From positions 361,762 through 425,761 of the forward strand of contig CALSMN010000004.1 of the NCBI GenBank assembly GCA_943787465.1: a DNA stretch of 64,000 bases, written 5' to 3'. Source of the DNA: an uncultured Bacteroidia bacterium (lineage in GTDB: Bacteria; Bacteroidota; Bacteroidia; NS11-12g; UBA9320). The notes beneath the pieces were generated by a model. The model was not told the origin of the DNA. It ran no database searches and worked only from the letters and a program-made list of their open reading frames with translations. Positions 45,080 through 49,779 of this stretch are shown here, piece by piece (positions within the stretch are counted from its first letter, which is position 1; each line of letters starts with the position of its first letter). Made by a program: the position numbers and the translations under genes.

Positions 45080-45214
45080 GGCTAAAATTATTTAAAATTA
45101 TTCGATTAATGAAAGTTGGTTTTTAAAAACAAAAATGTCACTTTCAGTTTGTGCGAAAATAACGTATTTTACTAATTTCCAAATAGGATTAAAATAATTT
45201 TATATTATTGGAAA

Positions 45215-45946
45215 TCAAGTAGTTAGCTGGTATAGCATTATCCCTGCTGCCACAGAGACATTCAAAGAATCCATAGAACCCTGCATTTCTATGCGCCAAA
45301 TTTTGTCCATTAAGGCTAATCGTTCGCGAGAAAGTCCTTTATCCTCATTTCCCATCCAAAGTGCCCAGGAATCTAATTTTTTTATATTCAATTTATCCAA
45401 TGGTTGGTCTGATTTTTCGGATGCAGCAAGTTGGTTGATTCCCCAGCTTTTTAGATAGTTTAATGTATTGGATAAACTACTCACCCGAGCTACCGGTAAT
45501 TGAAGAAGTGCCCCTGCTGAGGATTTTACAGCTCCTTCACCAATCTCAGCATTGGCCTTAACCCCTACAATTAGTAAATCTATACCAAATGCTAGGCAAG
45601 ATCTGGAAATTGCTCCTATGTTTCTTATATCTTGTATCCCATCAGCGACTAATATTTTGGGAGGTTTACCTTCTTCAAATAATCGGGTAATGGTTTCTTC
45701 CAACGGAACAAATTCAATAGGGCTTTTGATAGCAACCACTCCTTGATGGTTGGCTCGCGTTATTCGGTTTAGCTTCTCAACAGGTACCATTTGAAATGGA
45801 GTATCTGTTTGTTTGGCCAACTGTCTCAATGTACCCACTTTTTGACTATCGGCTTTACTATTCACATATACCTTGCCAATGGTTACACCACTTTTGAGAA
45901 GATCTTCTACAGCATGATAACCAATAACAACACCTTCTTTACCCAT
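45215..45946 (-). CDS. rlmB: 23S rRNA (guanosine-2'-O-)-methyltransferase RlmB, intact copy
   Basis: 243 residues from ATG 45946 (MGKEGVVIGYHAVEDLL), the start also seen in the upstream partial copy. An ATG at 45976 exists only because of the insertion junction. SpoU motifs are intact: NIGAISRSC (motif 1), WMGNEDKGLS (motif 2) and MDSLNVSVAAG (motif 3), forming the trefoil-knot SAM site that methylates G2251. The first 72 codons are within the 238-bp duplication, so this complete gene is a fusion rebuilt downstream of an insertion. Its promoter context differs from the ancestral one next to the DUF2723 gene. Confidence 0.93.
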   Translation of the reverse strand: MGKEGVVIGYHAVEDLLKSGVTIGKVYVNSKADSQKVGTLRQLAKQTDTPFQMVPVEKLNRITRANHQGVVAIKSPIEFVPLEETITRLFEEGKPPKILVADGIQDIRNIGAISRSCLAFGIDLLIVGVKANAEIGEGAVKSSAGALLQLPVARVSSLSNTLNYLKSWGINQLAASEKSDQPLDKLNIKKLDSWALWMGNEDKGLSRERLALMDKIWRIEMQGSMDSLNVSVAAGIMLYQLTT

Positions 45947-45967
45947 AGGATTATCTACTGGAGAGTA
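45730..45967. repeat. 238-bp direct repeat, copy 1 (within rlmB)
   Basis: Identical by eye over 238 bp to 46498-46735, offset 768. It spans the first 72 rlmB codons, the spacer, and 13 bp matching the end of the DUF2723 gene (TACTCTCCAGTAG in gene orientation). Because this copy carries the tail of a gene that lies beside the other copy, this one is the secondary junction. Confidence 0.95.
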
Positions 45968-46064
45968 TATCATCATTTATAATATTCTCAGATTTTTTAC
46001 AGCTGACAAAAAAAACATTAATTATTAAAGTTAAGATTATTATAAAGAATGATGTATTTTTCAT
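45951..46064 (-). pseudogene. 5' fragment of a lipoprotein gene
   Basis: A 37-codon frame starting MKNTSFFIIILTLIINVFF and VSC, a full lipoprotein signal with lipobox FVSC, then KKSENIINDD. At that point it meets the repeat junction (45967/45968) and reads five codons of unrelated sequence (ILSSR) to a stop. It begins 15 bp after the stop of the lipoprotein-like 3' fragment upstream. The broken gene lies wholly within the 530-bp inserted segment plus junction. No function is assignable. Confidence 0.7.
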
Positions 46065-46079
46065 TTTATGTATGTGTTT

Positions 46080-46496
46080 TTAGTTTTGTTTTTCTATGCT
46101 GAATTCAGGTTCATTTGCTCCTTTGCAAACAGCAGTTTTATCGGATTTATTTATTTTTAAATTGTATTTAGGTTTAGAATATTCACCATCGCTTAACGAG
46201 CATTCCACAGTTACTGAATTGGCATCTTCATTAAGTATTTTAAAAGTGCCATTATAATAAACTCTGCTATTATCATCAAGGTTTGTTTGTTGCAAACCTG
46301 CAATGCCATCCTCTTTTAGTAGAAACTTAAAATCAATGGAAGGAACTGAAACCTTTTGGCCGCCAATTATCATATCGTCACCATATTGATTTTTCATAGT
46401 GTAACTTGGCTGAATTCCGTGGTACTTTCCTAAGTATTCACTCTGCAGTAGTTGTTGATTATGTTTTTTTACTTCAGTTGATTGAGTCTGATTACT
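46080..46496 (-). pseudogene. 3' fragment of a small secreted/lipoprotein-type gene
   Basis: The frame is open from the repeat junction (46496) to a TAA at 46080, about 138 codons, with the first ATG at 46397 giving 105. Upstream codons (NQTQSTEVKKHNQQLLQSEYL, read from the junction) look like a mature lipoprotein linker, and a TAG sits at the junction itself. There is no signal peptide. It therefore seems to be a gene lacking its 5' end. The visible domain (YLGKYHGIQPSYTM, SIDFKFLLKEDG, NSRVYYNGTFKIL) resembles a small beta-barrel/lipocalin-type fold, without a named match. Confidence 0.65.
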
Positions 46497-46714
46497 CTAG
46501 CAACCACTCCTTGATGGTTGGCTCGCGTTATTCGGTTTAGCTTCTCAACAGGTACCATTTGAAATGGAGTATCTGTTTGTTTGGCCAACTGTCTCAATGT
46601 ACCCACTTTTTGACTATCGGCTTTACTATTCACATATACCTTGCCAATGGTTACACCACTTTTGAGAAGATCTTCTACAGCATGATAACCAATAACAACA
46701 CCTTCTTTACCCAT
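46469..46714 (-). pseudogene. rlmB: Truncated rlmB 5' copy
   Basis: The first 72 codons are identical to rlmB at 45946, in the ancestral position 8 bp after the DUF2723 gene stop, then nine junction codons (RVIRLNQLK) and a stop at 46469. All SpoU catalytic motifs are absent. If translated it would give only the N-terminal substrate-binding domain of RlmB; function is unlikely. Confidence 0.9.
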
Positions 46715-46735
46715 AGGATTATCTACTGGAGAGTA
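46498..46735. repeat. 238-bp direct repeat, copy 2 (ancestral position)
   Basis: Identical by eye to 45730-45967. It includes the last codons and stop of the DUF2723 gene and the start of rlmB in the order expected before rearrangement. The unique 530 bp between the copies (45968-46497) carries only broken lipoprotein-type genes. Confidence 0.95.
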
Positions 46736-49700
46736 GTAACTTGCTTATATAAATTATCGTATGTATCTGCTAATTTATCCCTTTTATATTCTCGAGCTAA
46801 AAGACCCATACTTTGTAATATTTGCATGTTTTCATTCAGCTCATCAGTTGTCCTGAATTTTTTGTAATACTGAATTAATTCATACGAGTTGTCCCCCACC
46901 TCTTTCAAGAACTGATCCCCTTTTTCCATTTGATTGGCTTTGTAATAAATATCTGCACTAGCCGCTTTTAAACGTAGATTCATGGGTAATAATGTTTCAG
47001 GCATTGAAGCATAACACTTATCCACTAAAGCAGCGGCTGTGTCAGGTTTACCTGTATTGGCATAATAATCGGCTACTTGAATAAATAATGAACGTAAATT
47101 TTGTGGAACTAACTGAGCTTTGTCATCCAAGAACATCGTTCCTTTTTCCATATTTCCCCATTTATAATCTTTCATCAAACGATTATACAATAAGTCCATA
47201 TCATCCATCCCACGCATTTGCTTATTGGCTTCTACAGGTAAAAGTTGATAGGTAAGCCCATTGTGTCTGAAGTATTTATCTAAGTTCATATATACCGACG
47301 AGCCTGTTGTAGTAGTCCAATAGATTGGTCTTTTCCATCCTGTTTTGGCATTAGTAGCAATAATATCGAGTACCACCAAATCTCCTTTGCTTAAACCACT
47401 TTTATTGATAGCCCACTCTAATTGATCTACAATACGAGCCGTATCTTTTGCAGGGATATATCCAGAAGCTATTGCTGCTTTTTGGTCTACTTTGACACTA
47501 AACTTCTTTACTGGAAACACATTGATTAATTCATTGGTGTTGGTTCTTTGTTTTAACTTTGGGTCATCCGAGGTCACATATTCCAATACTTGATCCAACG
47601 GATAAAATGAATCTACGTTGACATTAGGAGCCTCAAAATACCTTACGTAGTCGCGTTTCCCTGCTACCAGTTTCTCTGCAGGAATACTGAGTGGAAGAGG
47701 TTCACTATCAAAAACTTTACGTCTCAGAGCACTACTATACCATTCTGTAGGCAATAAACTCAAGTTGATCACACGTACATCTGTACGAATCCCCTCTACA
47801 TTCTGAGCATACCAAAGCGGATAGGTATCATTATCTCCATTGGTAAATAGAATAGCATTGGGCGCGCAACTATTCAAATAATTCTCTGCGAAGGATATTC
47901 CTAAATATCGATCTGAACGATCGTGATCATCCCAGTTGTGGAAACCCATCAAGACTGGTGATACAAGCAATGCAATAACCGTAGCACCCATAGCTGCTAT
48001 GGTTTTGTTAACTGATTTTTTGAATAGGTCAACCAAAAAAATCACACTGAGACCAATCCAAACACAAAACGTCTGGAATGAACCTACCGAGGAATAATCC
48101 CGCTCTCTGGGCTCCATTGGAGGTTGATTAAGGTATACAACCACCAATAATCCCGTAAATAAAAACATAACAAGTACTGTATAAAAGTCCATTTTACTCT
48201 TTTTATACATAACAATGATGCCTAAAATTCCCAGCAATAGAGGCAAGAAAAACAGGGTGTTTCGTCCTTTGTTATATTGAAGACTGGCTGGCAAGTCTTG
48301 AGAGAATCCAAGCCTAGCTTCATCAATGAAATCAACTCCTGAAATCCAATTTCCGTCAGAAGTAGTTCCCAAAACATTCTGTATATCATTTTGCCTTCCC
48401 ACAAAATTCCACATAAAATATCTCCAGTACATCCAACCCAGCTGATACTTGAACATAAAAGTCATGTTATTCGCAAAAGATGGCTTTTTGGATTTTACAT
48501 TTTCCAATTGTTGTTCTAATTGATTTCTACCAGAAAATTTCTTAACCATACCGTTCCATAAAGGATAGTATCTTGCTTTTTCTGACATATCACCCATTCG
48601 CGGCAAAACTGTAGAAAAACGGTCATCATAAATAGGTTCTTGCTTAGTACCTATCTCTTCATATGCACTATCTCCACGTCTGTACTGTGCCCTTCCCTCT
48701 TCAATATCTGTCAAATTTGCATTATAATACGGACCATATAAAAGCGGACGAGAACCGTACTGCTCCCGATTGATATAGCTCAGTAAGCTTTCCGCATCCT
48801 GTGGATCATTCATATTGATAGCTGGTTCGGCAATGGATCGAATCACAACCATGCTGTAGGACGAAAATCCAAGCATAATAAATGCGAAACAGAGAATAGC
48901 CAAGTTGGCAATGGGTTTATTGTTTTTGATGGTGTATCTCAAACCATAAACAATCCCAAAGACAATAAGTAACAAGAAAAATAAAACGCCAGAATTAAAA
49001 GGTAGTCCAAATGAATTCACAAAAATTCTGTCAAAAAAAGCAGCAACAGCAGGTGTTTTTGGTATTATCACCCATTGAAGTATTGCTATGGAACCTAATC
49101 CTATCACTGAAGCTCGGATTATATTTCGTTTGTTAGCACCAAATTTGTTAATGAAGTAGTATAAGAATACAGCAGGGACAACCAATATACCCAACAAGTG
49201 AAGCCCTATACCCAGACCAATAATATATGCTATAAATACAATCCATCGATCAGAAGTAGGTTCATCTTTTACCTTTTCCCATTTTAAAATTGCCCAAAAT
49301 GCTAAAGCCATAAAACAAGAAGAACTAGCATACACCTCTGCTTCAACTGCGTTGAACCAAAATGTGTCCATAAAAGTGACAGATAACGCAGCTACTAATC
49401 CTGCTCCGATTATAGTGATGGCATTCCCTAATTCTACCGTTTTAGCATTCAAATCGATAGAGAGCATTTTCTTAGCAAAATGTGTTGTAATCCAAAAAGT
49501 AAACATGACAGTTGCCGCACTCGCTACAGCGCTAAGCATATTGACAGCAATAGCAACTTGGTTAGTACCCGGCTCGGCAAATAGGGTAAATAAACGCCCT
49601 AACATTAAAAACAAGGGAGCTCCTGGAGGGTGGACTACTTGCAGTCTGTAAGATGCCGAAATAAATTCACCACAATCCCATAAACTCACGGATTGCTCCA

Positions 49701-49779
49701 ATGTCATAATATATACAGCAATGGCTATTAAGAATGTAATCCAACCAAATACCGTATTAATTCTATTAAAATTATTCAT
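46723..49779 (-). CDS. DUF2723 multi-pass membrane protein (GT117-like)
   Basis: 1018 residues. The opening segment (about residues 11-27 transmembrane, then LEQSVSLWDCGEFISAS and LQVVHPPGAPLFLMLGR) is diagnostic of DUF2723, a Bacteroidota family classed as GT-C glycosyltransferases (GT117). The WDCGEF acidic residues lie in the first extracytoplasmic loop, where the catalytic acid of GT-C enzymes sits. About a dozen helices occupy residues 1-620. The soluble remainder includes INGDNDTYPLWYAQN-like and C-terminal TPR-like helices. A role in protein O-glycosylation is inferred from the class. The last codons and stop lie inside the 238-bp repeat. Confidence 0.88.
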   Translation of the reverse strand: MNNFNRINTVFGWITFLIAIAVYIMTLEQSVSLWDCGEFISASYRLQVVHPPGAPLFLMLGRLFTLFAEPGTNQVAIAVNMLSAVASAATVMFTFWITTHFAKKMLSIDLNAKTVELGNAITIIGAGLVAALSVTFMDTFWFNAVEAEVYASSSCFMALAFWAILKWEKVKDEPTSDRWIVFIAYIIGLGIGLHLLGILVVPAVFLYYFINKFGANKRNIIRASVIGLGSIAILQWVIIPKTPAVAAFFDRIFVNSFGLPFNSGVLFFLLLIVFGIVYGLRYTIKNNKPIANLAILCFAFIMLGFSSYSMVVIRSIAEPAINMNDPQDAESLLSYINREQYGSRPLLYGPYYNANLTDIEEGRAQYRRGDSAYEEIGTKQEPIYDDRFSTVLPRMGDMSEKARYYPLWNGMVKKFSGRNQLEQQLENVKSKKPSFANNMTFMFKYQLGWMYWRYFMWNFVGRQNDIQNVLGTTSDGNWISGVDFIDEARLGFSQDLPASLQYNKGRNTLFFLPLLLGILGIIVMYKKSKMDFYTVLVMFLFTGLLVVVYLNQPPMEPRERDYSSVGSFQTFCVWIGLSVIFLVDLFKKSVNKTIAAMGATVIALLVSPVLMGFHNWDDHDRSDRYLGISFAENYLNSCAPNAILFTNGDNDTYPLWYAQNVEGIRTDVRVINLSLLPTEWYSSALRRKVFDSEPLPLSIPAEKLVAGKRDYVRYFEAPNVNVDSFYPLDQVLEYVTSDDPKLKQRTNTNELINVFPVKKFSVKVDQKAAIASGYIPAKDTARIVDQLEWAINKSGLSKGDLVVLDIIATNAKTGWKRPIYWTTTTGSSVYMNLDKYFRHNGLTYQLLPVEANKQMRGMDDMDLLYNRLMKDYKWGNMEKGTMFLDDKAQLVPQNLRSLFIQVADYYANTGKPDTAAALVDKCYASMPETLLPMNLRLKAASADIYYKANQMEKGDQFLKEVGDNSYELIQYYKKFRTTDELNENMQILQSMGLLAREYKRDKLADTYDNLYKQVTTLQ

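Follow-up and report, generated by a model that had tools for sequence, protein, structure and literature searches.

How can a short piece of foreign DNA come to lie between two bacterial genes, bracketed by two copies of the sequence at their border, and leave both genes whole? The question is raised by a locus in the window, the whole 64-kb stretch of DNA that was analysed, in which two copies of a 238-bp segment (A) flank a 530-bp segment (B). Copy 1 of A lies at 45730-45967 and copy 2 at 46498-46735, with B at 45968-46497 between them, all read on the minus strand. The A copies are 100% identical in a repeat comparison of the window and start 768 bp apart; the first-pass annotation had given the same identity, coordinates and lengths of 238, 530 and 768 bp, and these prove exact to the base. 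An agreement over 238 exact bp cannot be a chance match. The A pair is the only direct repeat of at least 40 bp in the whole window, and in the whole 1.97-Mb assembly A occurs twice, each time exactly, and B once. The G+C content is 29.8% for B and 40.3% for A, with 36% for the contig. The A-B-A scar is probably real, and its order on the minus strand is the DUF2723 (PF11028, TMEM260-like) gene, A copy 2, B, A copy 1 and the remainder of rlmB.

Both flanking genes are intact. The gene rlmB, for the 23S rRNA Gm2251 2'-O-methyltransferase, runs from its native start over 45946-45215 on the minus strand, and its product matches the SpoU_methylase and SpoU_sub_bind domains as well as the full-length TIGR00186 (RlmB) model, with 174.4 bits against a curated cut-off of 160.15 over residues 16-252. 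The open reading frame as called is longer (253 aa) and opens at ATG 45976, a start made by the new junction; its ten extra N-terminal residues are junction codons, and since homology with relatives begins only at about residue 11, the native start is ATG 45946. The DUF2723/TMEM260-like membrane protein gene occupies 46723-49779 on the minus strand (PF11028, 229 bits), and its last 13 bp, TACTCTCCAGTAG on the minus strand, fall within A. The C-terminus of this protein can be aligned with its nearest relatives as far as the penultimate residue, which makes the 13 bp native to copy 2. Copy 2, in the ancestral place, therefore carries the end of the DUF2723 gene and a 5' fragment of rlmB, the latter continuing into B in another frame as an 81-codon pseudogene ORF (46469-46714, minus strand). 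Copy 1 lies inside intact rlmB and consists of the DUF2723 gene's final 13 bp, the spacer and the 5' part of rlmB. This arrangement had been anticipated in the annotation, which placed copy 2 directly after the DUF2723 gene, took copy 1 to hold a displaced DUF2723 3' end and proposed that re-copying A had kept rlmB whole; the placement of the copies and the intact rlmB are confirmed.

The ancestral state of the locus is seen in relatives. An rlmB orthologue was found in 15 same-genus genomes, and in every one of them the DUF2723 gene stops 1-16 bp short of the rlmB start, with nothing between; the closest relatives compared share at most ~80% RlmB identity, and the gaps at L004 and L005 were determined by visual inspection of the sequence. 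With the DUF2723 gene abutting rlmB at 15 of 15 loci, the A-B-A arrangement is derived in this lineage, as had been suggested. The junction in related genomes had also been named as the place where an old duplication, its copies merely kept identical, would be recognised; the relatives are without the duplication, and an old duplication shared by all of them is rejected.

The most informative fact on the event, absent from the first-pass annotation, is that B comes from a lipoprotein operon. On the minus strand B begins inside one lipoprotein gene (gene 1), of which it holds 138 open codons (SNQTQSTEV...EKQN stop, 46080-46496). In alignments and an order-wide search these correspond to positions 25-162 of a ~165-aa lipoprotein family with a signal peptide and a Cys lipobox, both of which are cut off here. 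Downstream of the gene 1 stop a second lipoprotein gene (gene 2) opens, of which B holds the initial 32 codons, including a signal peptide and lipobox (MKNTSFFIIILTLIINVFFVSCKKSENIINDD); together with junction codons these form a translated 37-codon ORF at 45951-46064 on the minus strand. In two other genomes, G053 and G050, a second lipoprotein gene likewise follows 3' of gene 1, and B is thus a slice of a two-gene operon. Both of its ends fall inside genes, and starting and ending within coding sequences it has the character of a random fragment rather than an element. The lipoprotein sequences tested belong to no Pfam or NCBIfam family. An RNA element was considered and rejected, as B matched no Rfam family. 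B is unlikely to have a function, since gene 1 lacks its signal peptide and gene 2 is a stub. The 37-codon ORF stops 4 nt before the native rlmB ATG, and translational coupling to rlmB may therefore persist. No terminator-like sites were found in 45100-46900.

The insert is foreign. Over 438 bp, B shares 93% DNA identity with G053, which belongs to another family of the same order, whereas the RlmB proteins of the host and G053 are only 36% identical; this disparity indicates that B was acquired by horizontal transfer. Its DNA identity is 75% to G032 and 67% to G050, and of 108 genomes of the order, 10 carry the lipoprotein family. In the host B is single-copy, and the genome contains neither an intact parent gene nor a second member of the family, so the template was external or has since been lost; copying from elsewhere in the cell's own genome was rejected on the same observations. 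Carriage as phage or plasmid cargo was likewise discarded, no lipoprotein relatives being found in phages, plasmids or viral contigs (IMG/VR). In G053 a DDE (rve) transposase gene stands directly upstream of a frameshifted relative of B (L034:344-1318), a hint, not proof, of a route for such DNA. In two genomes, B-family lipoprotein genes have genes that encode short Asn-rich repeat proteins in their vicinity (e.g. ...SNYGTTGYIKPDGTIQN...; L037:1088-1420 and L047:159-569).

Foreign DNA bracketed by direct repeats recalls a mobile element, here with an unusually long target duplication. Insertion sequences and transposons are marked by a transposase (or a partner element), terminal inverted repeats and a short target duplication of fixed length. 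B contains no transposase or recombinase ORF and has no inverted repeats at its ends, as the annotation had observed, and the duplication is 238 bp long. An element that defines its own boundaries would show the same ends in different places, but the homologues run past the ends of B: those in G053, G032 and G050 extend beyond the gene 1 end into a full signal peptide, and those in G053 and G050 into a full second gene. Nor are the relatives of B at other loci bracketed by duplications, or found in plasmid, phage and viral collections. A transposon or integron-like element was rejected on the absence of a recombinase and terminal repeats and on ends that cut two genes; the mobile-element reading is largely refuted and retains next to no probability.

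A second explanation is that B or its joints stem from chimeric reads or a co-occurring organism during library preparation or assembly. B is indeed nearly identical to DNA of another lineage and single-copy. However, two separate joints would both have to be false, the estimated contamination is 0.04 and the contig measures 436 kb. The same contig also resolves almost five exact 1353-bp tandem units, which suggests long reads, and such reads would span the 1-kb structure. An assembly error looks unlikely, and an artefact of either kind is given a distinctly low probability.

What remains is to explain two illegitimate joints, which any model needs: one between rlmB (the last base of A on the minus strand) and gene 1, and one between gene 2 and the first base of A. 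A is doubled because these joints lie 238 bp apart in crossed order. The first-pass annotation had listed template switching, a small circle and an assembly artefact as candidates, which is the right list, and template switching is preferred. A single, recent and accidental capture of foreign DNA by a double replication template switch is favoured with somewhat better than even confidence. In such an event (i) a 530-bp piece of a lipoprotein operon belonging to a different lineage within the order would enter the cell, (ii) the growing strand would exit the chromosome inside rlmB and copy 530 nt of the foreign strand, and (iii) the strand would return 238 bp upstream of its exit point, re-entering the chromosome in the final codons of the DUF2723 gene. 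Illegitimate (non-homologous) joints would thereby connect B at either end to the DUF2723-rlmB locus. The locus displays what a template switch is expected to leave, namely a templated insert, with its 93% foreign relative, and an exact duplication of A between the switch points. Microhomology-driven events usually involve a few bp of microhomology. If the donor gene was intact, the overlap at the rlmB-side joint would be ~1 bp at most, as judged from G053 and G032, since a longer one would place a TAG stop in frame; under that premise, the overlap would count against a switch driven by microhomology.

The eukaryotic literature offers a likeness in form. FoSTeS/MMBIR events, described mostly in eukaryotes and with the cell's own genome as template, also combine an insert copied from elsewhere with a duplication between the points of exit and re-entry. 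Here, in contrast, the template would be foreign DNA and the setting is a bacterium. A literature scan for bacterial template switching onto foreign DNA turned up no close precedent beyond two studies (PMC3240628, PMC3784515).

From the A-B-A product alone, template switching cannot be told apart from its main rival, a Campbell-type integration in which a 768-bp circle of A and B, end-joined in the cell, enters by a single homologous crossover in A. This would yield exactly A-B-A, and B is flanked by identical A copies as it requires, the A+B circle itself not having been seen. In Escherichia coli, plasmids that had been linearised, partly degraded and then re-ligated integrated through one crossover, producing 109-950 bp duplications beside foreign DNA about ten times more commonly than homology-facilitated illegitimate recombination (HFIR) did (PMC3240628). 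There too foreign DNA adjoins a direct duplication of the target gene, but the target segment had been cloned beside the foreign DNA beforehand, whereas here the donor has no known homology to the locus. The circle would also need the same two illegitimate joints and a crossover besides, hence a longer path, and A and B would first have to meet on one small molecule. No Ku gene was found in the genome; this disfavours the joining of fragments to a circle, though there are other routes of ligation. Circle entry is accordingly judged unlikely, at perhaps a third of the weight given to template switching.

HFIR and HDIR also place a short foreign segment in the chromosome through an illegitimate joint. 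HFIR relies on a single homologous joint and as a rule removes a segment of comparable length (PMC3240628). The present locus, by contrast, has no visible homologous joint, and its DNA has been duplicated: none of the target DNA is missing and 238 bp have been gained. The G053 locus has no homology to the flanks of B, with the proviso that G053 may not be the true donor.

Transformation could also account for the duplication of A, if the two illegitimate joints formed on different sister chromosomes (unequal interchromatid integration). The genome carries comEC and dprA homologues; both genes are near-universal, and their presence proves little. Interchromatid integration does make tandem duplications in Streptococcus pneumoniae, where transformation gives merodiploids that require repeats and homology and span ~100-900 kb (PMC3784515). 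As it would here, uptake of DNA drives a duplication that spares one intact copy of the target gene. The known cases nevertheless depend on homology at both ends and involve 100-900 kb, whereas at this locus 238 bp are duplicated and neither end of B shows detectable homology, and this route is considered very unlikely. Template switching is thus retained as the preferred reading of an event that is known in kind, with a mechanism that is not uniquely fixed.

The age of the scar can be bounded from the A copies. Zero differences in 238 bp correspond to a divergence below ~1.3% (rule of three), even though selection no longer maintains copy 2 as rlmB; either the event is recent or the copies have undergone conversion. 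Near-by exact repeats were sought in ~0.8 Mb of genome sequence (contig C4 in full plus 360 kb from other contigs), and within that sample no second exact A-B-A case was found, which fits a rare accident and led to a recurring genome pattern being rejected. The locus is probably the scar of an isolated DNA-copying accident rather than a new type of mobile element. That gene-sparing, homology-free capture of foreign DNA by template switching is a regular process in this lineage, of a kind not yet catalogued in bacteria, is highly improbable, and the survival of both genes may simply reflect which accidents persist. The interest of the locus lies in a fresh and readable scar, with an exact duplicate, 15 relatives that show the site empty and a foreign insert whose relative is 93% identical, of a type seldom caught before it decays. 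It is one event with no sign of function, and it shows short non-homologous DNA entering a bacterial operon without breaking either gene.

Besides tandem arrays, the only comparable pair in the sampled sequence lies at contig C4:105547-105849 and 107705-108003 (L058), where two 303-bp copies of 90% identity, spaced by 2158 bp, each contain a 63-aa ORF and enclose two unique genes; this is possibly an older event of the A-B-A type. Immediately to the left of the window, a 1353-bp unit is repeated exactly, head to tail, in ~4.7 copies (contig C4:355248-361661, L070-L071), inside one giant minus-strand ORF (>2984 aa, repeat-rich and surface-protein-like) that reaches the start of the window. A further array at contig C4:348925-351127 (L070) is built from units of 735-741 bp that are 87-99.6% identical, and the patchy distribution of this identity suggests conversion between the units.
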